A stretch of 64,000 nt of DNA from Sphaerisporangium krabiense (lineage in GTDB: Bacteria; Actinomycetota; Actinomycetes; Streptosporangiales; Streptosporangiaceae), in the NCBI RefSeq assembly GCF_014200435.1, contig NZ_JACHBR010000001.1, positions 2,852,001 to 2,916,000 of the forward strand. Reading direction: 5' to 3'. The position numbers and the translations under genes were made by a program. The notes below the pieces were generated by a model that saw nothing but the letters and a program-made list of their open reading frames with translations, did no database searches and was not told where the DNA came from. Positions 23,811 to 41,480 of this stretch are shown here, in pieces (within the stretch, counting starts at the first letter, position 1; every line of letters begins with the position of its first letter).

Positions 23811-24029
23811 GTTGTCTTCAAGCCGGCGATCGACCGGATGCTGCTCGCCGATCTGCACGCTCCACGCAAGCAGCAGCACACCAGTAAGCGGATCTTTGAC
23901 CGGCTGGTGGCTGAGTATGAGATGGAGGGGATCTCCTACTCGACGGTCTGTGAAAACGTGTCGTGGCGGCGGCCGGAGATCAGAGTGGAGGTGGGCCGGG
24001 CGCCGCCCGTGGAAGTTCCGATTGATCAA
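23811..24029 (+). pseudogene. IS21-family IstA transposase fragment
   Basis: A plus-strand segment of about 70 codons reads FKPAIDRMLLADLHAPRKQ, then KRIFDRLVAEYEM, SYSTVCENVSWRRPEIRVEVGRAP. This is the conserved region upstream of the catalytic core in IS21 IstA proteins. The helix-turn-helix before it and the DDE core after it are absent, as is an istB gene. It is a relic joined to a hydrolase fragment on the left. Confidence 0.65.
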
Positions 24030-24206
24030 GAACAAAGCCTGGCGTCGAAGCCGAGGTCGCGCCGGCACCGTCGTGGACGAGCGCGTCTGGACGATCCGCG
24101 AGAGCCTGCGGCGCGGCGACCGGGTGCGGCTGAGGCTGGGCAGGCCGCTGCCCGGACCCCGCACACCACGGCCCGGCAGGTCACCGCCCTGACCCCGCAC
24201 ACGGTA

Positions 24207-24238
24207 GGAGGCGGCGCGCACCATGGCCCGCCGCCTCC
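24207..24238 (-). terminator. Hairpin downstream of the exoprotease gene
   Basis: GGAGGCGGCG (24207-24216) and CGCCGCCTCC (24229-24238) are perfectly complementary around a 12-nt loop, 20 nt past the stop of the minus-strand protease gene. There is no T tract, as is common for actinomycete terminators. Confidence 0.55.
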
Positions 24239-24257
24239 CTCATTCACTGCCGTGCCG

Positions 24258-26069: not shown

Positions 26070-26899
26070 AAGGGTTTTCCTTTCGGAGGGATCTTGCCTC
26101 TGCGGACACTAACTGATCTTGAAACCCGGCGAGCAAGGCAATTTTTGAACGTCCGGCGTCGCCCGCGTGTCCACCGAGTCATGCTCATCTTCGCCGGTCA
26201 GCGGCTGGGTGCGATGTTGGCGTTGCGGTGGAAGGCGGGATGCCGTTAAGAAATGTGTCACCAGCCGCCAACCGTAACGTCGCTGCAGGTCAGGAAGGTA
26301 TGCCTTCATAGAGGCTTCGACTCCCGGCCTCATCGAAACTCCTCGATGCAGGCCGCGAGGACCACGCGTCTTGCCACTCGTCGGTGACGCAACCGAGCTC
26401 GTAGTGCCACCATCCGTCCTCCTGCCCGTGGTCCAGGAGCGCCTTGAGGCCGGAGAAGTCAGCGCCGGCTGGTGCGGTCAAGGCCACCATGGGGAAATCC
26501 TCGCTGAACACCTCGCCCCCGAGCCCAAACGCCGCAAACCGCTGGTGCACCACCTCGGGGAGGACGGCACGAGGTACGGGCAGACACGGTCGTCGAGGCC
26601 GAGCAGCCCACGGTCGCGGAGCCATGGCCTTCAGGGCGGACTCGGACATCGGGCACGCGAAGCTGACGACCGCGGAATTCATCGATCTCGTCAAGGCCGT
26701 CGACGGGCACGCGCGAAAGGCGCTACAAGGGTGAGCGTCTGCCCATTGTTCGTGGTGAACGGTGAGTCGGCCCGCCGGTGTCAAGGCGACGGCGGGCACC
26801 GGCGATGAAATATGGGGCGCCGTTCCACGTTCCGCCGCAGGAGACCCCGGACCCGATCGCGGTCCGGGGGGCAAGCCTGATGAACACTGTGGCGTGGTG
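26070..26899. other. Intergenic stretch with one gene fragment and no intact gene
   Basis: Apart from the DUF4265 fragment listed separately, no convincing gene is seen. A minus frame at 26109-26333 with MKAYLPDLQRRYGWRLVTHF matches nothing I recognise and has no ribosome site. The overlapping plus frames between 26371 and 26800 have the Arg/Pro-rich look of shadow frames. Confidence 0.5.
26290..26586 (-). pseudogene. DUF4265 protein fragment
   Basis: The frame encodes PEVVHQRFAAFGLGGE, then FPMVALTAPAGADFSGLKALLDHG and WWHYELGCVTDEW, the C-terminal two thirds of the DUF4265 family, whose function is unknown. The N-terminal third upstream of about 26586 does not resemble the family and no start site is evident. 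It is therefore probably a truncated, inactive copy. Confidence 0.55.
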
Positions 26900-27658
26900 T
26901 CAGTCTCCGGTGAACTTGGGCTGTCGGCCCTCGCGTACTGAGGCGAAGCCCTCGCGGAGGTCCTTTGTGCCGAACATGAGTTGGTAGCCGCGGCGTTCCA
27001 GGGCGATTCCGGCTTCGAAGGAGGTGTCCAGGCCGAGGCGGACGACCTCCTTGATCTGCCGTACGGCGAGGCGTGGGCGGGAGGCGATCAGTGCGGCCAG
27101 TTCCACGGCGCGGTCGATGGCGTTGCCCTCGACGACCTCGGAGACGTAGCCGAGGCGGTGGGCGTCGGCCGCGCTCAGGGGCGTGCCGGTGAGGAGGGCG
27201 TACAGCGCGTTCTGCCGGCCGATGGTCCGGGGCAGCCGCTGGGTCGCGCCGCCGCCGGGTACCAGGCCGATGGTGACCTCGGTCTGGGCGAAGCGCGCGT
27301 TCTCCGCGGCGATCACGAAGTCGCACTGCAGGATGAACTCGTTGCCGCCGCCGAACGCGTCTCCGTTCACGGCGGCGATCACCGGCTTGGCGCTGTACCA
27401 GAACGCCTGGTGGGTGTAGGCGCGGATCGCGCCGACCACATCGCGTTCGGCCTGTTCGCTCAGGTCGGCGCCGACGGCGAAGACGGTGTCGCCGCCGGTC
27501 AGGACGATCGCGCCGATGTCGTCATCGGTGTTGAGCGTGTCGATGGCCGCGGCGAGCAGCTCGCGCACCTCGGTGTTGAGCGCGTTCCGCACCTCCGGCC
27601 GGTTGAGCCGGATGATCGCGACGCCGTCGCGGGGCTTTTCGATCTCGACAACTGCCAT
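26900..27658 (-). CDS. Enoyl-CoA hydratase/isomerase (crotonase) family protein
   Basis: A 252-aa crotonase. The oxyanion-hole strands IVLTGGDTVFAVGADL and NGDAFGGGNEFILQCDF are present. Both candidate catalytic glutamates remain, one in GGGNEF and one in QTEVTIGLVPGGGATQRLPR. It would hydrate or otherwise process a CoA thioester produced downstream of the Rieske oxygenase system. It is the last gene of the minus-strand operon, 45 nt after the unknown 172-aa gene. The ATG at 27658 has only a weak ribosome site, suggesting coupling to upstream translation. Confidence 0.88.
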   Translation of the reverse strand: MAVVEIEKPRDGVAIIRLNRPEVRNALNTEVRELLAAAIDTLNTDDDIGAIVLTGGDTVFAVGADLSEQAERDVVGAIRAYTHQAFWYSAKPVIAAVNGDAFGGGNEFILQCDFVIAAENARFAQTEVTIGLVPGGGATQRLPRTIGRQNALYALLTGTPLSAADAHRLGYVSEVVEGNAIDRAVELAALIASRPRLAVRQIKEVVRLGLDTSFEAGIALERRGYQLMFGTKDLREGFASVREGRQPKFTGD

Positions 27659-27703
27659 GGGTGGTTCTGGCCTTTCTGTACGCCCGGGCAGGGGCGGCGG
27701 GCG

Positions 27704-28222
27704 TCAGTGGTGGGACTCGAAGGTGTCCATGTTGGGGTTGTTCTTGAGCTTTCCGAAGATCTCGGAGCCGTTGTTGATCCAGTACGGCGACTGCGGCGTT
27801 CCGGTGGCGCCGTCGAGGTCGGCGACGCCGATGAAGCAGACCATGAACCAGATCAGTTCGGCCGCGAACATCTCCGGGTGCTCCCGCGGAACACGCCCGC
27901 CCACCCGCCGGGTCCACTCGGCCATGGCCGTGTCCAGGTCGATCCGGAAGCCGAGGGTGGTGTCCGGGAGATCTGAGTCGTGGAATGTCACTAGAAGCCG
28001 GTCTTTGCCGTCCTCGACGGCGTATTCCACCCCTTCGAAGGTGAACGCCGGCCAGAACGACCGGTCGTGGAGGTACTCGTCCTCGGCCGGCGCGTGAGAG
28101 GCACGACGGTTGGTGCGGTACCGGTCGCTCAGCAGCGACCACATGTGGTCGCTGATCACCTCGGGCAGCGCGGCGCCGCCGTTCGGCTGCCTTGTGCCGT
28201 CCGCGGCGGGATCGACGTTCAC
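27704..28222 (-). CDS. Conserved protein of unknown function in the Rieske operon
   Basis: A 172-aa soluble protein with no signal peptide, membrane span or metal-binding motif that I recognise. The central part (DRSFWPAFTFEGVEYAVED, LLVTFHDSD, LGFRIDLDTAMAEW) looks like a compact alpha/beta domain. The GTG at 28222 overlaps the reductase stop (GTGA), which fixes the start and shows tight coupling to the oxygenase electron-transfer chain. It could be a small accessory or assembly protein, or an enzyme acting on the hydroxylated product. Confidence 0.7.
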   Translation of the reverse strand: MNVDPAADGTRQPNGGAALPEVISDHMWSLLSDRYRTNRRASHAPAEDEYLHDRSFWPAFTFEGVEYAVEDGKDRLLVTFHDSDLPDTTLGFRIDLDTAMAEWTRRVGGRVPREHPEMFAAELIWFMVCFIGVADLDGATGTPQSPYWINNGSEIFGKLKNNPNMDTFESHH

Positions 28223-29457
28223 CCTGCGTACACCCCCTGGGTGGTCATGCCTTCCGACTGGATGCGCGCCTTCATCCGCATCACCGCACGCGGCGCGTTG
28301 ACCCCGGCGGCGGCGACGACCCGGCCCGCCCGGAAGTAGGTGACGAACGGGTGCCCGTCCGCCCCGGTCCTCTCGACGCGGACCTCGTCGTGGCCGTGCG
28401 CGTGGCCGACCATCTGGTACTTGAGCCCGTATTGGTCGGACCAGAAATACGGCACGTCCGCGAACGGCGCGGGCTCCCGGCCCTCCTGAGCCGCCGACCA
28501 GCTCTCGACGGCGTGCCGGGCCTGGGCCGACGCGTTGCTCCAGTGCTCCACGCGCATCCGGCGCCCGAACACCGGGTGCCACCAGTTGGCGACGTCCCCG
28601 GCCGCGAAGACGTTCGGCCGCGCGGTGCGCAGCGCCGCGTCGCAGCCGAGGCCGTCGGAGAGGTCGAGTCCGCCGCCGTCCAGCCAGTCGCAGGAGGTCA
28701 CCGCGCCGAGCCCGAGGACGACCAGGTCCGCCGAGGTCCGCTCGCCGTCGTCGTAGGTCAGCGTGACCGGGCCGCGCGGCCCGGCCGCCGACAGGCCGGT
28801 GACGGTCGCGCCCAGGCGGGTGGTGACGCCGTGGGCGTGGTGCCGGTCCAGGCAGAACCGCCCGAGCTCGGCGCCGAACACCGGCTCCATCGGCAGCCGT
28901 CCCTGCACGACCAGTTCGACGGGCAGCCCGCAGGACCGCAGCGAGGCGGCCATCTCGCTGCCGATCAGCCCGGCGCCGACGACCACCGTACGGGGCCGCC
29001 CGGCCAGCCGCTCCTTGATCCGCTCGGCGTCGGCGAGGGTGCGCAGGCAGTGGACGCCGGGCAGCCCCGTGAACGCGGCGGGGACGCGGGCGCGCATGCC
29101 GGTGCAGACGAACAGGGCGTCGAAGGGGATCCATTCCTCCCCGGCGCCGGCGGTACGCGTGACCAGGACACGGTCGGCGTCCGGGTCGAGCCGGGCGCAC
29201 ACCGCGTGGTCCAGGACGCGCAGTCGGAGGCCGTACCGCTCGGGGACCGGCAGGCGGATCGTGTCCCGGGTGACCTTGCCCTGGATGAGCTCCTTGGACA
29301 GGGCGGGCCGGGAGTACGGGGCCGTGCCCTCCGGGCCCCGTACCCAGACGACGTCGCCGGTGAAGCCGCGCCGGTCGAGTTCGGCGACCACGGTGTGGCC
29401 GGCGAGGGAGCCGCCGGCCACCACGATGGTCTGTGAGGTGTCGCCGGCCACGCTCAT
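28219..29457 (-). CDS. FAD-dependent ferredoxin reductase of the Rieske oxygenase system
   Basis: A 412-aa reductase of the rubredoxin/ferredoxin-NAD(P) reductase class. IVVAGGSLAGHTVVAEL binds FAD, VVVGAGLIGSEMAASLRSCG binds NAD(P)H, and FAAGDVANWWHPVFG is the conserved FAD-contact segment near the C-terminal reductase domain. It passes electrons from NAD(P)H to the small ferredoxin whose gene overlaps its ATG (ATGA). The unknown 172-aa gene overlaps its stop. It belongs to the same transcription unit as the oxygenase. Confidence 0.9.
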   Translation of the reverse strand: MSVAGDTSQTIVVAGGSLAGHTVVAELDRRGFTGDVVWVRGPEGTAPYSRPALSKELIQGKVTRDTIRLPVPERYGLRLRVLDHAVCARLDPDADRVLVTRTAGAGEEWIPFDALFVCTGMRARVPAAFTGLPGVHCLRTLADAERIKERLAGRPRTVVVGAGLIGSEMAASLRSCGLPVELVVQGRLPMEPVFGAELGRFCLDRHHAHGVTTRLGATVTGLSAAGPRGPVTLTYDDGERTSADLVVLGLGAVTSCDWLDGGGLDLSDGLGCDAALRTARPNVFAAGDVANWWHPVFGRRMRVEHWSNASAQARHAVESWSAAQEGREPAPFADVPYFWSDQYGLKYQMVGHAHGHDEVRVERTGADGHPFVTYFRAGRVVAAAGVNAPRAVMRMKARIQSEGMTTQGVYAG

Positions 29458-29648
29458 TCCACCAGGGTCAGGGCGAGGACCGGGCAGGAGGTGACCGACT
29501 GGCGGACCTGGGCGTGGACCTCGGGGTCGTCGGGGATCTCGTCGGCGATGTGCAGGGTCAGGTCGTCGTCGATGTCGAAGACGTCCGGGGCGATGCCCAT
29601 GCACACGCCGTTGCCGTCGCACAGGTTGCGGTCAACAGTGATCTTCAT
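29454..29648 (-). CDS. [3Fe-4S]-type ferredoxin
   Basis: A 64-aa ferredoxin with three cysteines, Cys10, Cys16 and Cys55 (CDGNGVC ... SCPVLAL). This is the pattern of actinomycete [3Fe-4S] ferredoxins that usually serve P450s or Rieske oxygenases. GAGGAACGAC precedes the ATG at 29648. It lies between the oxygenase (31-nt gap) and the reductase (4-nt overlap), so it is the electron shuttle between them. Confidence 0.92.
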   Translation of the reverse strand: MKITVDRNLCDGNGVCMGIAPDVFDIDDDLTLHIADEIPDDPEVHAQVRQSVTSCPVLALTLVE

Positions 29649-29679
29649 GTCGTTCCTCACGCGAAGGGGTGTCTCGCCG

Positions 29680-30897
29680 TCAGAGCGCGGCCGAGGTCTC
29701 AAGGCCGCCGTCGACCAGGTCCACGTAGTCCTGGTAGCGCTTCAGCAGCCACTGGTTGAACTGGAGGAGCGACTCCTCCTGGAACGAGTAGCGGCCGGGA
29801 CGGCGGAAACGGGAGCGCATGCCCTTCTGCAGGGAGAGGTCCGAGCTGGCGTCCTGCTGGTGGAACAGGACGAGGCCGTCCTGGGCGATCTTGTAGAGCT
29901 GCTCGAAGCGGGGGTGCTTGGTGGACTCCTCCGGATACAGGTGGCCGATGCGCAGGTTCATGTGCTCGGGCCCGGCCGGCAGGACGAGGTAGTAGAACAG
30001 GCCCTCCGGCACCGCCCCGAAGCCCAGGTTCGGCGGGATCGAGGCGAAGATGACCTGGTTGCGCTCCTTCTCGCCGAGCGTCGGGATCACCGGGAGCAGG
30101 GCCTTGGTGGTGGGGTTGAAACCCGCGTCGGCGTGATAGAAGCCGGTCGGGTGGTAGATCGCGCCCTCGTCGGGGCTGATGTCGACGAAGCTGGTCAGCC
30201 GGACGTGCGCGAAGTCGTGCAACATGCCGTGCAGGTAGGCGCTGTGGTACGGCTCGATGCCGTTCTCCAGCTGGGACTTCCAGTTCCAGTTGTTGCCGCG
30301 CAGCTCGGCCACCGGCATGCTCACCATGTCGCCGATGTGGTAGTTCTCCAGTTCGGCGGTCAGCTTGGTGAGCGTGGGCGCGAGGGGCTTGGCGTCCGGG
30401 TCGAGGTTGGTGAAGACGAAGCCGTTCCAGATCTCGACCCGGTGCGAGGGAAGGTACGCCTCTCCCTTCAGGTTCTTGAGGCCGATGGTGTCGTTCATGG
30501 ACGGCGCCGCGATCAGGTTGCCGTCGAGCCCGTAGGTCCAGGCGTGGAACGGGCAGCGGAACAGCCTGCCGGTGTTCCCCGTCCCCTCGCACACCAGGTG
30601 GGCCCGGTGCGCGCAGACCGGGGTCAGGACCCGGATCTCCATGTCCTTGCCGCGGACCATCATCAAGGGCTCGTCGCCCATGTCGACGCGGACGAAGTCT
30701 CCCGGCTTCGGGATCTCGTCGACGCGGCCGAGGCACAGCCACTGCCGCATGAAGACGGCCTCCTGCTCGAAGGCGTAGAACTCCGGATCGACATAGCACT
30801 CGCGGGGAAGGTTCCAGCCGGTGGCCATGTCGCGGGAGCCCTCTTCGATGACCTTGAGGATCCGCCGGAGGTTCGCTGAAACGGGCGCCTGACCCAT
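29680..30897 (-). CDS. Rieske non-heme iron oxygenase, alpha subunit type
   Basis: A 405-aa oxygenase. The Rieske [2Fe-2S] centre is formed by Cys95, His97, Cys115 and His118 (CAHR ... CPFH). The mononuclear iron site is suggested by His218 and His223 in EPYHSAYLH, with Asp340 as probable third ligand. Such enzymes hydroxylate aromatic or heteroaromatic rings or demethylate quaternary amines. No beta subunit is present, so it is probably an alpha-only oligomer. AAGGAG lies 10 nt before the ATG, and a TATACC-type motif shared with the permease promoter lies 20-32 nt upstream. The neighbouring NCS2 carrier suggests a purine- or pyrimidine-like substrate. Confidence 0.9.
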   Translation of the reverse strand: MGQAPVSANLRRILKVIEEGSRDMATGWNLPRECYVDPEFYAFEQEAVFMRQWLCLGRVDEIPKPGDFVRVDMGDEPLMMVRGKDMEIRVLTPVCAHRAHLVCEGTGNTGRLFRCPFHAWTYGLDGNLIAAPSMNDTIGLKNLKGEAYLPSHRVEIWNGFVFTNLDPDAKPLAPTLTKLTAELENYHIGDMVSMPVAELRGNNWNWKSQLENGIEPYHSAYLHGMLHDFAHVRLTSFVDISPDEGAIYHPTGFYHADAGFNPTTKALLPVIPTLGEKERNQVIFASIPPNLGFGAVPEGLFYYLVLPAGPEHMNLRIGHLYPEESTKHPRFEQLYKIAQDGLVLFHQQDASSDLSLQKGMRSRFRRPGRYSFQEESLLQFNQWLLKRYQDYVDLVDGGLETSAAL

Positions 30898-30916
30898 GAT
30901 CGTGGTGCTCCTTAGG

Positions 30917-30929
30917 GGTACTGCGGTAT
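30917..30929. promoter_or_regulatory. Operator-like motif upstream of the Rieske operon
   Basis: GGTACTGCGGTAT here is identical, over 13 bases, to 32541-32553 upstream of the permease gene. It lies 20 nt before the oxygenase ATG, in the 61-nt gap after the permease stop. It is a likely site for the GntR/FCD regulator encoded at 34395-35087. Confidence 0.6.
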
Positions 30930-30958
30930 CTGTGCGGTGACGCCGGGGGGTGCGAGAG

Positions 30959-32371
30959 TCAGCCGGTGCCGTCCACGACGGGCGTCCGGGGGATCTCATG
31001 GGCGTCGGCGCTCGGGGCGGCCTCGGCCGCGGGTGGGTCCTCGCGGACCAGCAGGTGGTTGAAGAGCAGGTTGAGCAGCAACGCCACGAGCACGGTGGCC
31101 GTGATGGCGCTGCCGAGGATGAACTGCGCGTCCTGGTGGAAGTTCTGGTAGATGGTGGGCACCGCGACCGGCAGCATGCCGACGCCGAGGGCGACGGCGA
31201 CGATGAGCAGGTTCTGGTTGCCCTCGAAGTTCACCTTCTGCAGCATCTGGATGCCCACGGCCGCGGTCATCGCGAACATCACCAGGCCGGCGCCGCCGAT
31301 CACCGGGCCGGGCAGGCTGGCGACGAGCTCGCCGAGCTTGGGGATGGCTCCCATGATCAGCAGGAGCAGGCCGGTGACCGTGATGACGTAGCGGCTCTTG
31401 ACCTTGGTGAGGCTGATCAGTCCCACGTTCTGCCCGAAGGTGGAGTCCGGCACGGAGTTCATGAACCCGGCGAGCAGGGCGGCGAGGCCGTCGGTGGCGA
31501 GGCCCCTGGCCATGTCCTTGTCGGTGACCTTCTTGCCGACGGCGTCCCCGATGGCGAGCACGCACGCGGTCATCTCGCTGAAGACCACCACCATGGCCAC
31601 GCACATCGCGATGATCGGGACGATCCGGAACTCCGGCGCGCCGAACTGCAGGGGCGTGGAGAAGCCGAACCACTTGGCGCCGCCCACGGACGAGAAGTCG
31701 GCGAGGCCCATGAACCAGGAGATCACGGCGCCGAGCGCGAGGCCGAAGAGCACCGAGACGTTGCGGGCGAACCCCTTGAACAGGCGGTTCACCAGCACGA
31801 TGATCACCACGACGGCGAACGCCAGCAGGATGTACCGCACGCTCGCGTAGTTCGGCGCGGCCGGGTCGGAGCCGATGATCAGGTCGGCGCTCACCTTGAT
31901 CAGCGAGAGTCCGATGATCGTGATGACGCAGCCGGTGACCAGGGTCGGGAAGAACCGCAGCACCTTGGAGAACGGCCGGGCGATCAGTATCCCGAAGACG
32001 CCGGCCGCGATCATCGAGCCGTACATGGTCGGCAGGCCGTACTCGGAGCCGATCAGGATCATCGGGGTGAGGAAGGTGAACGAGGCGCCCGCGACCACCG
32101 GCATCCGGATGCCGAAGAAGCGGGTCAGCCCGAGGCTCTGGATGATGGTCGCGATTCCGGCCACCAGCAGGTCGGCGTTGACGATCAATGCGATGGTGTG
32201 CGTGTCGAGTTTGAGCACCGCGCCGAGCACGAGCGGAACGGCCACGCAGCCCGCGTACATGATCAGCATGTGTTGCAGGCCGAAGAAGAACAACTGGGGG
32301 ATGGGCAGGACTTCGTCGACCGGGTGACGACGGGAGTCCGTTGACTGGGGTGCGCGGACGGTAGGTGACAC
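30959..32371 (-). CDS. NCS2-family purine/pyrimidine permease
   Basis: A 470-aa carrier with about 14 hydrophobic segments. The NCS2 signatures are present: QHMLIMYAGCVAVPLVLG near the N-terminus, FSEMTACVLAIGDAVG (the helix 8 acidic motif) and NSVPDSTFGQNVGLISLT (helix 10). Such proteins import uracil, xanthine, uric acid or related bases with protons or sodium. The GTG at 32371 has AGGAG upstream. It is the first gene on the minus strand facing the hydrolase operon and presumably brings in the compound the cluster degrades. The sequence alone does not say which base. Confidence 0.92.
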   Translation of the reverse strand: MSPTVRAPQSTDSRRHPVDEVLPIPQLFFFGLQHMLIMYAGCVAVPLVLGAVLKLDTHTIALIVNADLLVAGIATIIQSLGLTRFFGIRMPVVAGASFTFLTPMILIGSEYGLPTMYGSMIAAGVFGILIARPFSKVLRFFPTLVTGCVITIIGLSLIKVSADLIIGSDPAAPNYASVRYILLAFAVVVIIVLVNRLFKGFARNVSVLFGLALGAVISWFMGLADFSSVGGAKWFGFSTPLQFGAPEFRIVPIIAMCVAMVVVFSEMTACVLAIGDAVGKKVTDKDMARGLATDGLAALLAGFMNSVPDSTFGQNVGLISLTKVKSRYVITVTGLLLLIMGAIPKLGELVASLPGPVIGGAGLVMFAMTAAVGIQMLQKVNFEGNQNLLIVAVALGVGMLPVAVPTIYQNFHQDAQFILGSAITATVLVALLLNLLFNHLLVREDPPAAEAAPSADAHEIPRTPVVDGTG

Positions 32372-32540
32372 GACGGTCTCCTGGGCACTGAGCGGAACGC
32401 GCCCTGGTCCCTCCGGCGGCGTCGACGCGGGCCATGATCCGGAGCTATGGGCGGATGTGTTGAGACACCTGCACGTGCAGGAATCCTCGCTGATCCGACG
32501 GTCGAGGTTTCCCGTCGAGAGCCGTGAAAGAGGGGGATCC

Positions 32541-32635
32541 GGTACTGCGGTATATGGAGATTAAGGGCGCCCTATACCACTGTCAACGGCTTGTTTCCCT
32601 GCCGATCGCTGCTTAGGATCCTGTATACCGTATCC
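32541..32635. promoter_or_regulatory. Divergent control region with three TATACC-type motifs
   Basis: Three related sites lie between the permease and the racemase-fold gene: GGTACTGCGGTATA (32541-32554, reverse strand TATACCGCAGTACC), TATACCAC (32573-32580) and TATACCGTATCC (32624-32635). The segment is clearly richer in A and T than its surroundings. The arrangement suits a GntR/FCD repressor that controls both arms of the cluster and releases on ligand binding. Confidence 0.6.
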
Positions 32636-32695
32636 CCCATTGATCCCCGATTGACCACCGTTGACCCCCTTCACGACTCACCGAGCGGAGGCATC

Positions 32696-33442
32696 GTGCG
32701 GCCGACCGCGCGGCGGATAGGCATGATCACCCCGTCGTCCAACACCGTTGTGGAACCCGTGACCGGCGAACTGCTGGGCGCCCGGCAGGACGTCTCGGTC
32801 CACTTCACGCGGCTCCGGGTGACGAGCATCAGCCTCGATCCCGCCGACACCCGTCAGTTCGGCCAGGACTCCTTCGTCGAGGCGTCCCGGCTCCTCGGCG
32901 ACGCCCGCGTGGACGTCGTCGCCTGGAACGGCACCTCGGGCTCCTGGCTCGGTCCCGACCGGGACGAGCGCCTGTGCCGCGCCATGGCGCAGGCCGCGGG
33001 CACGCCCGCGACGACCTCGACGCTGGCCATCCTCACGGCGCTGCGCACCCGGGCGGTCCGGCGCCTCGGCCTGCTCACGCCGTACACGCCGGACGTCGGC
33101 GCGGCCATCGCCGCGAACTACGCCGGCCAGGGCTTCCCCGTCCACGCGGCGCGCCACGTCGGCCTCACCACGAACTACGACTTCGCGCTGGTCACGGCCG
33201 CGCAGCTCGACGACGCCTTCGACGGGCTCGCCGCCGCCGGCTGCGACGCCGTCGCGGTGGTGTGCACCAACGTGCGCGCCGCGCACCTCGCCGCCGGGTG
33301 GGAGAGCCGGACCGGCGTCCTGGTGGTCGACAGCGTCGCGGCGACGCTGTGGCACGCCCTCGCGCTGGCCGGGGACACGGCCCCGATCACCGGGTACGGC
33401 GGGCTGCTCGCCCGCCCGCCCGCGGCTTTCACCCAGAGATGA
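32696..33442 (+). CDS. Asp/Glu racemase superfamily enzyme (maleate isomerase / arylmalonate decarboxylase-like)
   Basis: A 248-aa enzyme. [11 protein letters not shown] at residues 11-21 is the family's substrate-carboxylate motif, and LLTPYT is its mirror in the second half. The second catalytic cysteine is present (Cys190, VVCTN), but the first, normally in ACTSGS, is Gly79 (NGTSGS). That single-cysteine arrangement is known from arylmalonate decarboxylase; racemases and maleate isomerases keep both. Decarboxylation or a one-base reaction is therefore more likely than racemisation. The GTG at 32696 follows GGAGG by 4 nt. It leads the plus-strand operon and overlaps the next gene (ATGA). 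Confidence 0.82.
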
Positions 33443-34398
33443 GAAACCCCATGGCCAAGGACATAAAGATCCTCATCGGCGTCGACGTCGACGCCGTCGC
33501 CGGCTGGCTCGGCTCCTACGGCGGCGAGGACTCGCCCAACGACATCCAGCGGGGCGTGTTCGCCGGCGAGGTGGGCACCCCGCGCCTGCTCCAGCTCTTC
33601 GAGCGGTACGGCCTGCGCAGCACCTGGTTCATCCCGGGACACTCCATCGAGACCTTCCCCGCCGAGATGGCGGCCGTCGCCGAGAAGGGGCACGAGATCG
33701 GGGCGCACGGCTACTCCCACGAGAACCCCATCGACATGTCCCTGGAGCAGGAACGCGACGTGCTCGGCCACTGCGTCGAGCTGATCCGGCGGCTGTGGGG
33801 ACGCCCGCCGCGCGGCTACGTCGCCCCGTGGTGGGAGATGAGCCGCAACACCACCGACCTCCTCAAGGAGTACGGCTTCTCCTACGGCCACTCGCAGAAC
33901 TACAACGACTTCCACCCCTTCTACGCCCGCGTGGGCGACGAATGGACGAAGATCGACTACAGCCGCCGCGCCGGCGACTGGATGAAACCCCTCCGGCACG
34001 GCGACGAGGTCGACCTCGTGGAGTTCTGCGGCAACTGGTACGTCGACGACCTGCCGCCGATGATGTTCGTCAAGAAGTCCCCGAACAGCCACGGCTTCGT
34101 CAGCCCCCGCGACGTCGAACAGCTCTGGCGCGACCAGTTCGACTGGGTCTACCGTGAGCTCGACTACGCGGTGTTCCCCATGACGCTGCACCCCGACGTG
34201 TCCGGACGGCCGCAGGTGCTGTTGATGCTGGAACGGCTCTTCGAGAGCTGGCTCGACCTGCCCGGGGTCGAGTTCACCACCTTCGACGCGGCGGCCGACG
34301 ACTTCCGCCGGCGCTATCCTTTCGAGGGCGCCGAGCGGCCGGCGCCGGTCGGGAGCGGTCCTGGACCGAGGCGGAAGACCGGGGAGACGGCCCTGTGA
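33439..34398 (+). CDS. Polysaccharide deacetylase-fold hydrolase (PuuE / cyclic amide hydrolase-like)
   Basis: A 319-aa NodB-fold protein with an N-terminal [10 protein letters not shown] acid motif, [14 protein letters not shown] and [10 protein letters not shown], the last being the histidine motif. YVAPWWEMS and [16 protein letters not shown] complete the fold. The long inserts and lack of a signal peptide resemble PuuE allantoinase and related cytosolic enzymes that open cyclic amides, not cell-wall deacetylases. The ATG at 33439 overlaps the previous stop; a second ATG at 33451 is an alternative. It is the probable ring-opening hydrolase of the cluster. Confidence 0.82.
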
Positions 34399-35087
34399 GC
34401 AGGCAGGCTGACGCGCCGAGTTTCGACATCGACGCCGACTACAAGCCCCTCAGGGACCGCGTCCGCGACGAGCTGCGCCAGCGCATCATCGACGACGTGT
34501 ACCCGGCCGGCACCCGGCTCGTCGAGACCGAGCTCGCGGCCCAGCTCGGCGTCTCCCGGCTGCCGGTGCGCGAGGCGATCCGCGCGCTGGAGACCGAGGG
34601 GTTCGTCAGGACGGTCCCCCGCCGGGGCGCGGTCGTGGTGGAACTCTCCGCCCAGGACGTCGAGGAGCTGTTCGACGTGCGGGAGGCGCTGGAGGTCCTG
34701 GCCAGCCAGCAGGCGGCCACCCGGGCCACCAAGGCCGAGCTGCGGCGCGTCCGGAGCGTCCTCGACCGTGGCCGCAAGGCCCTCGACGCCGGGGACCGCA
34801 TCGCCCTCGGCAAGGCCAACGAGGCCTTCCACGACGAGATCCTGAAGCTGTCCCACAACACCCTGCTCCAGTCCGTGCTGGAGCCGCTGCAGGGACGTCT
34901 CCACTGGCTGCTGCGCCAGACCGGTGACCCGTACGACCTGTTCGAGGAGCACGCCGCGTGGTTCGAGGCGATCGCCTCGGGCGCGGCCGACCTCGCCGCC
35001 GAGCATGCCCGCAGGCATGCCCGGCTGAACCGCGAGATCGTGCGGAACCTCCTGGCCGAGCGGCAGCAACGCGCCCCGTCGGCCTAG
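34395..35087 (+). CDS. GntR-family regulator with FCD ligand-binding domain
   Basis: A 230-aa regulator. The winged helix ([45 protein letters not shown]) occupies about residues 20-75. An all-helical FCD domain with [12 protein letters not shown] and the metal-ligand histidines typical of the family follows. It is encoded inside the catabolic operon (GTGA overlap with the deacetylase-fold gene) and is the natural candidate to bind the TATACC-type motifs at 30917 and 32541-32635. The ligand is probably the transported base or a breakdown acid. Confidence 0.92.
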
Positions 35088-35227
35088 CACGACCCAGGCA
35101 CGTTCCCGGCGGGTGGCCCCCGCGTCTCACCTTGTCCTCCTGCGGCGGACGTTTCGTTCCCGCCGTGTCCCCCACCCACCGTCATCTCGCGCTGCCGCGA
35201 TGCCGTTCTCCCACCAGGAGCAGCACC

Positions 35228-36493
35228 ATGTCCGATCCCACGCAGCAGACCCTCGACGCCCTGAACGGCACCGCGGTCCATCTGCGCCACGTCCGCAAGG
35301 CACGCGACGCCACCGACCGGGTCGGGCCGCGGCACTTCCTGCACGCCGGGCCGCCGCTCGAACTCGCCGCCGTCCCCGGGCCCATGCGCGGCGCGATCAT
35401 CGCGGGCCTGCTGCTGGAGCGCGAGGCCGGCTCCGCCGCCGAGGCCGAGGCGATCATCGACCGTGGCGAGGTGAGCATCAGCCCGTGTCACGACGCCGGC
35501 GCGGTCGGCGCGATGGCCGGGATCATCACGCCGAACACCCCCGTCGTGGTCGCCGGGACCGCCGGCGGCGTCACGACGTTCTCGCCGCTGAACGAGGGCA
35601 TCGGCGGGGCCATGCGCTACGGGTCGTACGACGACGTGACGCTGGCCCGGCTGCGGTGGCTCGGCGACGTGCTCGCCCCGGCCCTGGACGAGGCCGTCCG
35701 GCGCTCCGACCCCCTCGACCTGCCCGCCCTGGTGGCCGAAGGGCTGCGGCGGGGCGACGACTGCCACAACCGGCTGGTCGCGACCACCGCGGCCCTGCTC
35801 GTGGCGCTCACCCCCGGCCTGCTGCGCACCCGCCTCGACCGCGAGGACCTCGCGAAGGTGGTCGCGTTCATCGCCGGCAACGGGCACTTCGCCCTGCCCT
35901 TCGCGATCTCGGCGGCCAAGGCCGTCACGCTGGCGGCGAGCGGCGTCCCCGGCAGCCCGGTCGTCACGGCCATGGCGAGCAACGGGCGGGAGTTCGGCAT
36001 CCGCGTCAGCGGGCTCGGCGACCGCTGGTTCACCGTGGCGGCGCCGGTCGGCGACCCGGTGCTGGTGGAGGGGGCCACGCTCGACGACGTCACGCCGACC
36101 ATGGGCGACTCGATGATCGCGGAGACGGCCGGGTTCGGCGCGTTCGCGATGACCGCGGCGCCCGCGATCATGTCCTTCGTCGGCGGCGACGCGGCGCGGG
36201 CCCACGAGATCACCCGGCGCATGCGGACCGTCTGCGCCGGGACCAGCGAGCGTTTCCTCATCCCCGGCGAGGACTTCCGCGGCACGCCGCTCGGCATCGA
36301 CGTGCACAAGGTGCGCGCCACCGGCGTCGAACCCGTCATCAACAACGGCCTCGCGCACCGCGAGCCGGGACGCGGCCGGGCCGGCGCGGGGATCACCCCG
36401 ATCCCGGTGGAGCCGTTCGCCGCGGCGAGCCGGGCGCTGGAGGAAGCCGGCCACGCCGGACGGGCCGCCGCCGTCGAGGGGGCGCACGCGTGA
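35228..36493 (+). CDS. DUF1116 protein (AllG/YlbE-like)
   Basis: A 421-aa cytosolic protein of the DUF1116 family, recognisable by the Gly-rich stretch TPNTPVVVAGTAGGVTTFSPLNEGIG, GNGHFALPFAISAAKA, SNGREFGIRVSG and the C-terminal GIDVHKVRATGVEPVINNGLAHREPG. The E. coli member YlbE (AllG) is a component of oxamate carbamoyltransferase in allantoin breakdown, with FdrA (AllF) and AllH. Neither partner is in this window, so the role here may differ. AGGAG lies 7 nt before the ATG at 35228, after a 140-nt gap. The amidase gene overlaps its stop. Confidence 0.85.
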   Translation: MSDPTQQTLDALNGTAVHLRHVRKARDATDRVGPRHFLHAGPPLELAAVPGPMRGAIIAGLLLEREAGSAAEAEAIIDRGEVSISPCHDAGAVGAMAGIITPNTPVVVAGTAGGVTTFSPLNEGIGGAMRYGSYDDVTLARLRWLGDVLAPALDEAVRRSDPLDLPALVAEGLRRGDDCHNRLVATTAALLVALTPGLLRTRLDREDLAKVVAFIAGNGHFALPFAISAAKAVTLAASGVPGSPVVTAMASNGREFGIRVSGLGDRWFTVAAPVGDPVLVEGATLDDVTPTMGDSMIAETAGFGAFAMTAAPAIMSFVGGDAARAHEITRRMRTVCAGTSERFLIPGEDFRGTPLGIDVHKVRATGVEPVINNGLAHREPGRGRAGAGITPIPVEPFAAASRALEEAGHAGRAAAVEGAHA

Positions 36494-38052
36494 GCGACGC
36501 CGGCATCCCCGCCTTCACGCCCGCCGATCTGGCCGCGGTCGCGGCCCGGTGGGGGCTCGACCCCGACCTGGTGGGCCGGCTCGGCCCCGCCCTGGACCGG
36601 ATGCGGGACACCTACGGCCGCGTGCGGACCCTGGCGACCGAGGGGCGGGCCCCCGAGCCGCCGCCCGTCGCGGTCACCCGGGTCCCGCGCGGCCCGGACA
36701 ACCCCCACGGCGCCTGGCTCTACCGGGTCGACGACCCCGGGCGGCACGGGACCGGGCCGCTCGCCGGGCGGACCGTGACCGTCAAGGAGTCGATCGCGGT
36801 GCGCGGGGTGCCGATGACCCTGGGCAGCCGCCTCATGGCCGATTTCGTCCCCGGCTCCGACTCGGCGGTCGTCGGCCGGCTCCGGGACGCCGGCGCGATC
36901 ATCGCCGGCACGTCGGTGTGCGAGGACCTGTGCTACTCCGGGTCCAGCTTCACCAGCGCGCACGGCCCCGTCGGCAACCCGTGGGACCCGCGCCGCGCGG
37001 CCGGGGGATCCTCCAGCGGCGCCGCCGTCCTGGTGGCCACCGGGCAGGCCGACTACGGCATCGGCACCGACCACGGCGGCTCGGTCCGCAACCCCGCGGC
37101 CTGGTGCGGCGTCTTCGGCCTCAAACCGACGTACGGCGTCGTCGAGTACGACGGCGCGATGCCGACCGAGCGCACGCTGGACCACATCGGCGTGCTCACC
37201 CGCACGGCCGCCGACCTCGTCCCCTTCCTGGAGGCCGCCGCCACGCCCCCCACGGCGCACGAGTCGTACGCCGACGGGTACGCCCGCGGGATCACCGGGC
37301 TGCGCGCTGGCGTCCTGGCCGAGGGATTCCGCTGGCCGGACCGCTCGGACCCGCGCGTGGACGGCGTGGTCGGCGAGTCCGCGTGGGCGCTGGAGCGGCT
37401 GGGGCTGACCGTGTCCGAGGTGTCGGTGCCGTTGCACCGGCACGGGAGGGACGTCCACCTGCCCATCTCGATCGAGGGCGGCCTCACCACCGTCTTCGAG
37501 TCCCGCCTCCAGGGCAACAACCACCTCGGGCCCTACCACCCGAACTTCGGGGAGGCCTTCGGCCGGGCGCTCGCCCGCAGTCCCGAGGACATCCCGGTCG
37601 GCGGGGTGCTGGCGCTGGTCGGCGCCACGCTGCTGCGGGACGCCACGCACGGCAAGGTCATGGCGTACGCGCAGCAGGTGCGGGCGCGGCTGCGCGCGCA
37701 GGTCGATCGCGCGCTGCGTGAGGTGGACCTGCTCGTCCTGCCGGCCGTCCCGATGCCGCCGCACCCGCTCCCGGCCGACCCGCGCGCGGCGGTGATCGAC
37801 ACCGATCTTCCCTTCGAGATGCACGACAACAACTGCGTGTTCAACCTCACCGGGCACCCCGCGCTCAGCGTCCCCTGCGGGTTCGTGGACGGGCTGCCGG
37901 TCGGCATGCTCCTGGTCGGACGGCCCGGCACGGACGCGCGCCTGGCCCGTGTCGCGGCCGAGTTCGAGGAACGCGTCTTCCGCTGCCCCCCACCGCCGCC
38001 GCCTCTTCCCGGGGCGCGGGACGAACTTCCCACCGTGAGGAGCGGACGATGA
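36490..38052 (+). CDS. Amidase signature family hydrolase
   Basis: A 520-aa amidase. The Ser-cisSer-Lys triad is visible as Lys99 (TVKESIAV), Ser174 (GGSSSGAA) and Ser198 (GTDHGGSVRNPA), and CGVFGLKPT follows. It cleaves a linear amide, releasing ammonia and a carboxylate. In this operon it would act after ring opening. The GTG overlaps the DUF1116 stop (GTGA) and the next start overlaps its own stop (ATGA). A histidine replaces the usual small or acidic residue just before the GGS motif, which may reflect an unusual substrate. Confidence 0.9.
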   Translation: MSDAGIPAFTPADLAAVAARWGLDPDLVGRLGPALDRMRDTYGRVRTLATEGRAPEPPPVAVTRVPRGPDNPHGAWLYRVDDPGRHGTGPLAGRTVTVKESIAVRGVPMTLGSRLMADFVPGSDSAVVGRLRDAGAIIAGTSVCEDLCYSGSSFTSAHGPVGNPWDPRRAAGGSSSGAAVLVATGQADYGIGTDHGGSVRNPAAWCGVFGLKPTYGVVEYDGAMPTERTLDHIGVLTRTAADLVPFLEAAATPPTAHESYADGYARGITGLRAGVLAEGFRWPDRSDPRVDGVVGESAWALERLGLTVSEVSVPLHRHGRDVHLPISIEGGLTTVFESRLQGNNHLGPYHPNFGEAFGRALARSPEDIPVGGVLALVGATLLRDATHGKVMAYAQQVRARLRAQVDRALREVDLLVLPAVPMPPHPLPADPRAAVIDTDLPFEMHDNNCVFNLTGHPALSVPCGFVDGLPVGMLLVGRPGTDARLARVAAEFEERVFRCPPPPPPLPGARDELPTVRSGR

Positions 38053-38444
38053 CCGCGCTGAACTTCTTCGGCGAGCCGCTCGAGCCGTGCGGCTTCGACC
38101 CGATCACCGGATACCGCCGGGACGGCTACTGCCACACCGGCCCGGACAACCCCAAGGGGCACACCGTCTGCGCGATCGTCGACGAAGGCTTCATCGCCTT
38201 CCAGACCACGGTCGGCAACGACATCGCGACGCCCCGGCCCGACCTCGCCTTCCCCGGGCTGAAGCCCGGCGACCACTGGTGCGTCATCGCGTCGAAGTGG
38301 TACGAGGCGTACCTGGCCGGCCGCGCCTGCCCGGTGAACCTCGCGGCGACCAACATCCGGGCGCTGGAGGTGATCCCGCGCGAGGCGCTCATGGAGTACG
38401 GGGTGGACCTTCGCGCGGGCGACGGCGGGGACACCTCGCGGTGA
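38049..38444 (+). CDS. DUF2237 family protein
   Basis: A 131-aa protein of the DUF2237 family: NFFGEPLEPCGFDPITGYRRDGYC, then HTVCAIVDEGFIAF, GNDIATPRPDLAFPGLKPGDHWCVIASKWYEA and VNLAATNIRALEV. The function is not established. The conserved cysteines and a compact sheet suggest a small binding or catalytic domain. It is coupled on both sides by 4-nt overlaps (amidase and MFS genes), so it belongs to the same pathway. Confidence 0.85.
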   Translation: MTALNFFGEPLEPCGFDPITGYRRDGYCHTGPDNPKGHTVCAIVDEGFIAFQTTVGNDIATPRPDLAFPGLKPGDHWCVIASKWYEAYLAGRACPVNLAATNIRALEVIPREALMEYGVDLRAGDGGDTSR

Positions 38445-39712
38445 GCCGCTGGGACGCGCTGCGCGCCTACTCGGCGCTGCCCGCCACCACCGGTCCCTGG
38501 TTCCTGGCGGTCACGCTGATCGGCCGCGTCCCCGCGAGCATGGGCCAGCTCGGCGCGCTGCTGCTGGTCAGCGGGGCCACGGGGTCCCTCGCGCTCGGCG
38601 GCGCCACGGCCTCCGCCTTCGCCGTGGGGCAGGCGGCCGGCGGCCCGCTCGTCGGGCGGGCGGCGGACCGCTACGGGCACCGGCCGGCCGGGCTGGCCGC
38701 GGCGCTGCTGCACACGGCGGCCCTCGTCCTGCTGGTGGTGTGCGTCGAGCGGGACGCGCCCACGGGGGCGGCGCTGCTGGCGGCCGTGGTCGCGGGCTTC
38801 TCGGTGCCGCAGGTCGGCCCGCTGTCCCGGGCCCGCTGGACCGCGCTGGCCCACCACGGACGGCTGCCCATGGCGCGTTTCCCTGCGGCGATGAGCTTCG
38901 AGGGGACCGGCGACGAGTTCGCGTTCGTCCTCGGGCCCGCGCTGGTCGGCGTCATCGCGACGGCGACCTCGCCCCCGGCGGCGGTGCTGGTGGCCGCCGG
39001 GCTCACCGTCACGATGTGCGTGGCGTTCGCCCTGCATCCCACGGCCGCCGCCGTCACCCGGGGCCAGGGCAGGGGCGCGGACGCCGCGGCCCCGGTGCTG
39101 CGCGTCCCGGTGTTCCTGCTCGCCGCCGGGCTGACCGGCCTCGGGTGCTACTTCGGCGCGGTGCAGGCCGGCGTCACGTGGCGCGCGGTCGACGCCGGGG
39201 CCGACGGGGCGGCCGGGCTGATCTACGCGGTGCTCGGGCTGAGCAGCGCACTCGCCGGGGTGCTCGTCCCGATGCTGCCCGCGTCCTTCCCGCTCGCCCG
39301 CCGGCTCCAGGTGGGCTTCGTGCTGCTGGCCGTCCTCACCCTGCCCCTCGCGATCGTCGGCGGGTTCCAGGTCGGCGGGCTGTGGCCGCTGGGGCTGCTG
39401 ATCGTGCTGCCCGGCGTCACCATCGCGCCGATCCTCGTCACGGCGTACACCCAGGCCGAGATGACGGTGCCGGTGGCGAAGATCTCGTGGGTCATGACCG
39501 TGCTCACCTCCGCCGTCGTCGTCGGCTACGCGATCGGCGCCTTTCTGTCGGGCACGCTCGCCGACCGGTACGGCCCCCTTTCGGCCTTCCTGCTCGCGCT
39601 CGGCGCGGCCGGTGTGGGCATCGCGGCCAGTGGCCTCGGGCGGCGGCGGCTGGCGGCCCTGCGCCCGGGCGGAACACCACACCACGAGCGGAATCCTGCG
39701 GAAATTTCCTGA
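38441..39712 (+). CDS. MFS transporter
   Basis: A 423-aa carrier with 12 predicted membrane segments. The central motif-A-like loop is GRAADRYGHRPAGLAAAL and its partial repeat is GTLADRYGPLSAF in the second half. It is the last gene of the catabolic operon, joined by a GTGA overlap. With an NCS2 importer already present, it could export an end product or toxic intermediate, or take up a related substrate; the direction cannot be told from sequence. Confidence 0.88.
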   Translation: MSRWDALRAYSALPATTGPWFLAVTLIGRVPASMGQLGALLLVSGATGSLALGGATASAFAVGQAAGGPLVGRAADRYGHRPAGLAAALLHTAALVLLVVCVERDAPTGAALLAAVVAGFSVPQVGPLSRARWTALAHHGRLPMARFPAAMSFEGTGDEFAFVLGPALVGVIATATSPPAAVLVAAGLTVTMCVAFALHPTAAAVTRGQGRGADAAAPVLRVPVFLLAAGLTGLGCYFGAVQAGVTWRAVDAGADGAAGLIYAVLGLSSALAGVLVPMLPASFPLARRLQVGFVLLAVLTLPLAIVGGFQVGGLWPLGLLIVLPGVTIAPILVTAYTQAEMTVPVAKISWVMTVLTSAVVVGYAIGAFLSGTLADRYGPLSAFLLALGAAGVGIAASGLGRRRLAALRPGGTPHHERNPAEIS

Positions 39713-39750
39713 TCTTTCGTGATAGGACGGCCCAAGGGAATTTCGGTTCG

Positions 39751-39770
39751 GCCGGGCGCTTCGCGCCGGC
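39751..39770 (+). terminator. Weak hairpin downstream of the MFS gene
   Basis: GCCGGGCGC and GCGCCGGC pair around a TTC loop with one bulged G, 39 nt after the MFS stop. There is no T tract. It may terminate the long plus-strand operon before the separate peptidase gene. Confidence 0.35.
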
Positions 39771-39872
39771 ACGCCCGTGGCGGCCGCTTGTCGCGCCGCC
39801 GGTCACGGGGCCGTCGACGGGGATGTTCCGACGGGTGCCGCGGGAGGGCCGGCCGACGACGATCGGAGCGAC

Positions 39873-41450: not shown

Positions 41451-41480
41451 CGCCGAGCGGACGGCCCGCATGCGCCCGCG

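Follow-up and report, generated by a model that had tools for sequence, protein, structure and literature searches.

A conserved divergent gene unit in Sphaerisporangium krabiense with predicted roles in N-heterocycle breakdown

The analysis concerns a 12.8-kb block of genes at positions 26,900-39,712 of a 64,000-nucleotide stretch of the 8.53-Mb Sphaerisporangium krabiense genome (G000:C1:2852001-2916000; the whole stretch is called the window here). It holds 13 genes, all intact, that are arranged as two divergent operons. In order of transcription, the minus arm encodes an NCS2 permease, a Rieske oxygenase alpha subunit, a ferredoxin, a flavin adenine dinucleotide (FAD)-dependent reductase, a 172-amino-acid (aa) protein and a crotonase, while the plus arm encodes an arylmalonate decarboxylase (AMDase)-type protein, a cyclic imide hydrolase (imidase), a GntR-FCD regulator, an AllG-family (DUF1116) protein, an amidase, a DUF2237 protein and an MFS transporter. 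The two arms form one unit, beyond a chance neighbourhood. Judged from the predicted proteins, this unit is on balance probably a GntR-controlled catabolic system for an imported nitrogen heterocycle of the oxo-purine or oxo-pyrimidine kind. Statements from the cited papers rest on the excerpts of those papers that were available.

Two arms of one unit

Related loci were collected in a pattern-based scan of genome contigs with the Rieske protein as query, a procedure by which distant relatives can be missed. Seven loci were obtained, belonging to Streptosporangium violaceochromogenes, S. saharense, S. amethystogenes, Microbispora sp. H13382, Streptomyces sp. TP-A0874, Streptomyces albipurpureus and a 3,291-base contig of an Acidimicrobiaceae metagenome-assembled genome (MAG). 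Eight full loci were compared: the window, a congener (G008), the three from Streptosporangium, one from Microbispora and two from Streptomyces. Order and orientation of 12 genes are the same in all eight. The MFS gene is present in seven and has no match in Streptomyces sp. TP-A0874. Protein identity to the window ranges between 65%, the value for both the 172-aa protein and the reductase of TP-A0874, and 99%; ranked over the seven other full loci, the Rieske protein (91-99%), crotonase (87-98%) and imidase (86-99%) lead, and the 172-aa protein is 65-91% identical. The MAG contig (3.3 kb) carries DUF1116 (64% identity, 278 residues present) and Rieske (75%) genes that are divergent and adjacent, with the Rieske gene followed by an amidohydrolase gene truncated at the contig end. 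This amidohydrolase is nearest to the 5'-deoxyadenosine deaminase and TRZ/ATZ-type families (210.4 bits versus 522), and for all 25 families displayed the fragment scores below the cut-off.

The proposal in the initial annotation that both arms are one functional unit is thus borne out by co-conservation in eight of eight full loci and by the DUF1116/Rieske pair in a ninth, distant locus; on the same two observations, a chance neighbourhood of two operons was ruled out. Taken one by one, parts of the unit are common: relatives of the imidase occur in 128 plasmid records and those of AllG in 45 of 396 genomes, as would be expected of two unrelated operons merely lying back to back. Even so, the constant order, the MAG pair, the common borders and the inverted boxes between the arms make that explanation highly improbable. 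As a control, 17 stretches around other AllG genes were searched at E ≤ 1e-5, and none has a relative of the Rieske protein, imidase or AMDase-type protein; a distant NCS2 relative (25-32%) occurs in ten of them and a distant amidase in six. Nine stretches around other Rieske relatives (36-45% identity; one covering 7.7 kb only) are without imidase, AMDase, DUF1116 and amidase at E ≤ 1e-8. Further unit parts in these nine stretches and in one around a second imidase are GntR matches in three and a SARP-type match in one. Because the hydrolase genes of the unit are absent around these distant Rieske relatives, the relatives are uninformative about the substrate.

The unit is sharply bordered. 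In four loci (S. violaceochromogenes, S. saharense, S. amethystogenes and Microbispora), blastn similarity in pieces of more than 150 bases is confined to the cluster, starting at window positions 26,896-26,902 and stopping at 39,669-39,671, where the flanks compared were 7.1-7.2 kb on the crotonase side and 1.1-1.4 kb on the MFS side. The extent of 26,900-39,712 first assigned to the unit was therefore almost exact. In the congener, DNA similarity continues beyond the MFS side. Within the genus, 2 of 11 genomes were found to have the cluster, and of 60 relatives 2 have a match to the GntR protein. The Rieske protein has matches at E 1e-75 in 11 of 394 genomes of the class, with the window's own alone above 45% identity; in the class of the MAG, matches at E 1e-100 occur in 7 of 247 genomes, and the MAG alone exceeds 45%. 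Given the sharp borders and patchy distribution, the block may be mobile. The same two features would also suit a role in specialised metabolism, or in self-protection against an imide-containing antibiotic with the MFS protein as exporter, and S. violaceochromogenes has a second imidase (78% identical to that of the cluster) beside a 1952-aa open reading frame (ORF) and two flavoprotein-like ORFs. We regard this as very unlikely, since the unit is without a biosynthetic gene, a nucleobase importer and several nitrogen-releasing hydrolases are catabolic parts, and two core genes are also present in the Acidimicrobiaceae MAG.

When the 324 bp separating the arms were aligned across the eight loci, two boxes proved to be kept, CGGTATATGG and, on the opposite strand, CGGTATACAG. 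The pattern CGGTATAYRG, taken from this alignment, forms an exact inverted pair in seven of the eight full loci (32548-32557, plus strand, and 32621-32630, minus strand, in the window) and is degenerate in Microbispora. The spacing is 73 bp in five loci and 83-84 bp in two. Two copies are seen in the 64-kb window versus 0.06 expected, and two or more occurred in 1 of 100 shuffles. When 136 loci were scanned, the pattern was present in 11: six of these are full loci, four are sub-loci of the unit that overlap, and the last is a plasmid stretch (L075) with two distant copies. We infer that the GntR protein (34395..35087, plus strand; PF00392 and PF07729) binds the boxes, which are candidate operators of both divergent promoters.

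Every gene named in the initial annotation is present and open, as judged by Pfam and NCBIfam matches, and two were added: the gene for the 172-aa protein (27704-28222) and the MFS gene that ends the plus arm at 39712. Overlaps of 4 bp, read from the coordinates, join ferredoxin to reductase and reductase to 172-aa protein in the minus arm, and imidase to GntR, DUF1116 to amidase, amidase to DUF2237 and DUF2237 to MFS in the plus arm, the last depending on an MFS start codon that was picked by eye. These overlaps suggest that translation is coupled within each arm.

Hydrolases, AllG-type protein and AMDase-type protein

The second gene of the plus arm (33451..34398, plus strand) encodes a protein of polysaccharide deacetylase fold (PF01522, 4.3e-18) that had been described as a PuuE-like hydrolase. 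That description does not hold: the protein scores 62 bits versus a cut-off of 424.6 for NCBIfam TIGR03212 and matches 3qbu at 3e-134 over 289 residues, and a PuuE allantoinase was ruled out on these grounds. It belongs instead to the cyclic imide hydrolase family (HxnM/imidase/HpPgdA), with the corresponding predicted activity, and the family stretches (one of 20 residues, plus GHEIGAHGY) are invariant in all eight loci. HxnM acts as the imidase when fungi break down nicotinate; it shares 64.2% identity with an imidase homologue of Pseudomonas putida, and in structure it is nearest to 3qbu (PMC9304392).

Relatives of the imidase adjoin an asparaginase or amidase gene in five of six plasmid stretches. 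DUF1116 was found in none of these six, and a 41% AMDase match lies in the neighbouring operon of one (L073). The genome survey covered 12 of 19 genomes other than the window's; no DUF1116 or AMDase match was present in 11 stretches with imidase relatives of 64-76% identity or in one with a relative of 37%. One imidase-relative stretch (L080) has an amidase (36%) and a Rieske protein (27%), and in another genome (G141) an imidase of 76% identity lies beside a GntR gene (56%) and an NCS1-type permease that is under the family cut-offs. The second imidase gene of S. violaceochromogenes (L145 9401-10348, genome G790) adjoins the 1952-aa ORF, perhaps a biosynthetic megasynthase, and the two ORFs that are flavoprotein-like by eye; the gene calls at this locus were script-made.

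The first gene of the plus arm (32696..33442, plus strand) encodes a protein of the Asp/Glu racemase superfamily whose best solved-structure matches are arylmalonate decarboxylases (3dtv/3dg9/2vlb, 1.6e-14). It passes the Pfam PF17645 cut-off (7.1e-22; 78.6 bits versus 25.9). An alignment of 14 sequences, seven from the unit and seven from plasmids, has invariant G79-T80-S81, Y130 and C190, which we take to be catalytic residues, and Gly at the position of the first Cys. The earlier assignment to a racemase-fold enzyme stands as far as the superfamily is concerned. Racemisation itself is unlikely, because the first catalytic Cys is missing and the AMDase-type Gly-Thr-Ser/Tyr/Cys set is kept, and this single-Cys set also rules out a hydantoin racemase. 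We use the label "AMDase-type", not "AMDase", since the Pfam cut-off is passed and that of the NCBIfam AMDase equivalog (NF052327) is missed.

Plasmid genes of the AMDase type are near cyclic amidohydrolases in four of six stretches. On Arthrobacter pZXY21 the AMDase-type gene (49%) lies beside a hydA-type cyclic amidohydrolase and a GntR gene (49%), and on Caballeronia pNK83 (45%) beside a cyclic amidohydrolase and an NCS2 gene; Rieske, imidase and DUF1116 are not among the annotated genes of either stretch. The other two are from Methylobacterium and Paracoccus. The exceptions are Burkholderia glumae, without a cyclic amidohydrolase, and Sinorhizobium, which has an amidase in its place. These plasmid contexts and the imidase neighbourhood in G141 support a link of the imidase and AMDase types to the breakdown of cyclic ureides or imides and are neutral with respect to the substrate. 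The full pNK83 stretch (L108, from Caballeronia sp. NK8) contains AMDase-type, NCS2, three amidohydrolase and UbiD/UbiX genes and one for a GTP-binding protein. On the Rhizobium plasmid pRACO34Ac (L073 1254-7608), genes for an HpaB-type monooxygenase, an amidase-like protein and a polysaccharide-deacetylase-fold protein are accompanied by amidohydrolase-like and flavin-reductase-like genes (both by eye) and the AMDase-type gene (41%), a row that is possibly a flavin-monooxygenase counterpart of the Rieske cluster.

A pyridine- or pyrrolidine-type ring might instead be degraded via glutarimide, succinimide or maleimide, the imidase acting before the amidase and the carbamoyl step being absent. 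The pairing of imidase and amidase in HxnM-HxnN (PMC9304392) and the asparaginase or amidase beside most plasmid relatives of the imidase are in keeping with such a route. It would offer no explanation for the AllG subfamily or for the nucleobase permease, and the 13 genes include no hxn-type molybdenum hydroxylase or pyridine monooxygenase. Maleate isomerase uses the first Cys, which the AMDase-type protein lacks. Taken together, we consider this type of substrate unlikely.

The DUF1116 protein (35228..36493, plus strand) had been called AllG-like, and it does belong to the AllG family (PF06545, 8.1e-69; 231.9 bits versus 27), but as a separate subfamily without AllF and AllH alongside. Set against 30 AllG sequences from other loci, the nine sequences from the cluster group in a single clade of their own (support 1.000, stem 0.80), and 36 positions are fixed differently between the two sets. 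The MAG fragment covers 23 of the 36, and at 18 of these 23 it agrees with the cluster. The invariant His/Arg/Asn of the AllG family are retained. The enzyme to which AllG contributes a subunit cleaves oxalurate, yielding oxamate and carbamoyl phosphate, and in E. coli full activity requires AllF, AllG and AllH (PMC11326118). No member of the AllF or AllH families is present in the unit, which therefore does not encode an AllFGH oxamic transcarbamylase (OXTCase). AllH occurs in six of nine genomes with the cluster or its core and was not found in the two Streptomyces genomes and the MAG, a count to be read with the incompleteness of the assemblies, above all of the MAG, in mind. The idea that DUF1116 is a borrowed OXTCase subunit is weakened because AllH was not found in these three of nine genomes. 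Partner genes were checked for the window genome's other AllG only (L036 8851-14350, G000:C2), which sits with AllH, a CoA-ligase-type gene (AllF) and a PucR-type regulator. The amidase-signature hydrolase that follows DUF1116 (36490..38052, plus strand) matches PF01425 at 6.1e-79 and the PDB amidase 3a1k at 4e-94.

Uptake, oxygenation and the candidate route

The NCS2 permease (30959..32371, minus strand; PF00860) passes the cut-off of the NCBIfam xanthine permease family pbuX (TIGR03173; 466.6 bits versus 414.15). Its signature is QNVGLISLTK, in which the first position is Gln, and Glu in UraA when the two are aligned; Gln at this position presumably marks carriers of the purine type. The permease is accordingly inferred to be a nucleobase-type importer, the specificity being predicted.

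The Rieske alpha subunit (29680..30897, minus strand; PF00355, 5.8e-18, and PF00848, 1.4e-25) has a CxH-CxxH cluster, a His-His-Asp iron site and a bridging acid that are invariant in the eight aligned sequences, and we assume for these residues their usual roles in the cluster and iron site. No ring-hydroxylating beta-subunit family is represented among the unit genes, which argues against a two-subunit dioxygenase, and the 172-aa protein has no credible match in Pfam, PDB sequences or PDB folds. Electrons would come from a 64-aa single-cluster ferredoxin (29454..29648, minus strand; PF13459/PF13370) and an FAD-dependent ferredoxin reductase (28219..29457, minus strand; PF07992, 3.4e-48, and PF14759, in Pfam only). 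The predicted model of the Rieske protein, with a mean predicted local distance difference test (pLDDT) score of 36.7, is too low in confidence for active-site comparison.

The nearest relatives of the Rieske protein bring in another candidate substrate, an N-methylated or betaine-like compound hydroxylated at the sp3 carbon beside the nitrogen, as by carnitine and glycine-betaine monooxygenases. Among named proteins, GbcA (NCBIfam, 2.5e-33) and carnitine monooxygenase (6y9c, 5e-31) match the Rieske protein best, and the Glu of the NxxExYH motif is at the position of the Glu that has a bridging role in carnitine monooxygenase. N-methylated hydantoins or xanthines would be compatible with the permease. 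The Rieske protein nevertheless lies far outside the GbcA family (115.2 bits versus a cut-off of 670). The electron chain consists of a ferredoxin and a Pyr_redox_2 reductase, unlike that of carnitine and glycine-betaine monooxygenases, which use fused flavin reductases. Such a substrate seems quite unlikely to us.

A nucleobase-like substrate is favoured because the pbuX cut-off is passed, because of the signature Gln and because the MAG neighbour is of the deaminase/TRZ/ATZ type. The order of import, hydroxylation, opening, nitrogen release and decarboxylation is read from the enzyme families present. The ring would be imported by the NCS2 permease and hydroxylated by the chain of FAD reductase, ferredoxin and Rieske oxygenase, giving a cyclic imide directly or later. 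Rieske oxidation of a purine is plausible in view of the hpxDE precedent (PMC7373994), and the imide step is favoured by the 3qbu match and the HxnM/HxnN imidase-amidase precedent (PMC9304392). The imidase would then open the ring, giving an amide acid that is either plain or N-carbamoylated, the solitary AllG-type protein would remove the carbamoyl group, the amidase would remove the last amide nitrogen, and a malonate-type remainder would be decarboxylated by the AMDase-type enzyme.

A ring that leaves malonate is expected from the AMDase-type enzyme and an N-carbamoyl amide from the AllG type. The best fit is a 4,6-dioxopyrimidine (barbiturate, dialurate or alloxan type), because it supplies both, the malonate as C4-C5-C6, and would explain the last three steps jointly; it would derive from uracil-, xanthine- or urate-like rings. 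With barbiturate, ring opening would give N-carbamoyl-malonamate, the next homologue of oxalurate; carbamoyl loss would leave malonamate, the amidase would yield malonate, and the AMDase-type enzyme would produce acetate and CO2. Identical steps from an alloxan-type ring would lead to mesoxalate. The barbiturate or alloxan form of the route is possible, and we put it forward tentatively. Rather doubtful as a whole is a new aerobic route in which a one-subunit Rieske enzyme leads to an imide, the imidase opens it, AllG acts by phosphorolysis without AllF and AllH, and the amidase and AMDase-type malonate decarboxylation follow. Phosphorolysis of N-carbamoyl-malonamate would in that case save the carbamoyl group as carbamoyl phosphate.

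A number of results weigh against the catabolic reading or its details. The solved transporter nearest to the permease is UraA (2.4e-35), ahead of the uric acid-xanthine permease (3.2e-24). The solved proteins nearest to the Rieske subunit, carnitine monooxygenase (6y9c, 5e-31) and biphenyl dioxygenase (7e-29), do not act on nucleobases. The AMDase-type protein is under the equivalog cut-offs of both AMDase (NF052327; 83.7 versus 225) and EutA (TIGR02990; 106.9 versus 318). AllG of E. coli depends on AllF and AllH, so that a solitary AllG is no more than a putative carbamoyl-transferring enzyme. In the MAG genome, which is incomplete, nothing matched the cyclic imide hydrolase at E ≤ 1e-20, contrary to a fixed set of genes. 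The CGGTATAYRG pattern was derived from the same alignment as the boxes and is not independent evidence, and genome-wide it is no commoner (8 copies) than a backward control pattern (13). Finally, the crotonase (252 aa; 26900..27658, minus strand; PF00378, 4.7e-60) is highly conserved and has no step in the scheme.

The proposed route also has no step for the DUF2237 and 172-aa proteins. DUF2237 (38049..38444, plus strand; PF09996, 1.1e-41) has the PDB relatives 3ush, 4ioh and 2lq3, which are named just as uncharacterised or by locus. The 172-aa protein (27704..28222, minus strand) has no Pfam or NCBIfam match at E ≤ 0.001 and none in the plasmid collection. A profile search of PDB sequences gave a single match (E 0.61), and a Foldseek search of the PDB with its AF2 model (mean pLDDT 68) gave nothing at E ≤ 0.001. 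The protein is rich in invariant residues, as in MWSLLSDRYRTNRR, MFAAELIWFM and GSEIFGKL. The MFS transporter (38441..39712, plus strand) matches PF07690 at 4.6e-21 on 38504-39712. No Rfam family was found at window positions 24,000-42,000. On the crotonase side, 24258-26069 (minus strand) encodes a subtilase (S8) of the secreted type that also carries inhibitor I9, fibronectin III and, at its C terminus, a cellulose-binding CBM2 domain, so that a protease is fused to a carbohydrate-binding module. On the MFS side, 41481-44777 (minus strand) is a 1098-aa ORF, SARP-like by eye, that is retained beside the cluster in the congener and has a 42% relative near another AllG gene (L044, genome G043).

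Described systems and significance

The combination of Rieske oxygenase, imidase, AllG and AMDase-type genes was not found in the full-text literature among the matches listed, a search from which subscription journals mostly fall outside. To this extent the initial view that the set matches no described pathway is upheld. In Klebsiella the further hpx genes belong to the urate-allantoin route, and no gene of that type is present in the unit. Rieske-type purine oxidation is the feature in common with Klebsiella hpxDE (PMC7373994). Like the unit, fungal hxn has a cyclic imide hydrolase of this family, with an amidase-type hydrolase coming after it; Rieske, NCS2, AllG and AMDase-type proteins are not named for hxn in the available excerpts (PMC9304392). 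The early pyridine oxidases (HxnS, HxnX and HxnV types) are missing from the 13 genes, which sets the unit apart from the hxn type. With E. coli AllFGH (PMC11326118) the AllG family is shared, and the unit differs in being without AllF and AllH. The lum cluster of Nocardioides simplex resembles the unit as an actinomycete Rieske system with several hydrolases for an N-heterocycle, but in the excerpted text has a two-subunit Rieske enzyme and P450, xanthine-oxidase-type and catechol dioxygenase proteins, of which the unit has none (PMC12746152). Riboflavin or lumichrome degradation was rejected on this difference in gene content. HxnM/HxnN, AllFGH, lum and hpxDE, as far as the excerpts go, are the closest described systems among the matches listed, each with one or two of the parts.

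The oxidative pyrimidine pathway uses barbiturase, which is of the AtzD family, and ureidomalonase. It would share import, barbiturate formation, ring opening and malonate with the route considered here, and differs in that no barbiturase gene is assigned in the cluster. The AtzD fold is the subject of PMC3758960.

The enzyme kinds of the unit are known; its combination of parts and its AllG subfamily look new within the literature covered. Whatever it degrades, the unit is one catabolic block of 12.8 kb whose full content is retained over two orders. If the proposed function is correct, it would add a breakdown route for nucleobase-like rings and give a physiological role to the solitary AllG (DUF1116) subfamily and to AMDase-type enzymes. 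Should the new aerobic route also prove true, it would provide a natural role for an AMDase-type decarboxylase.

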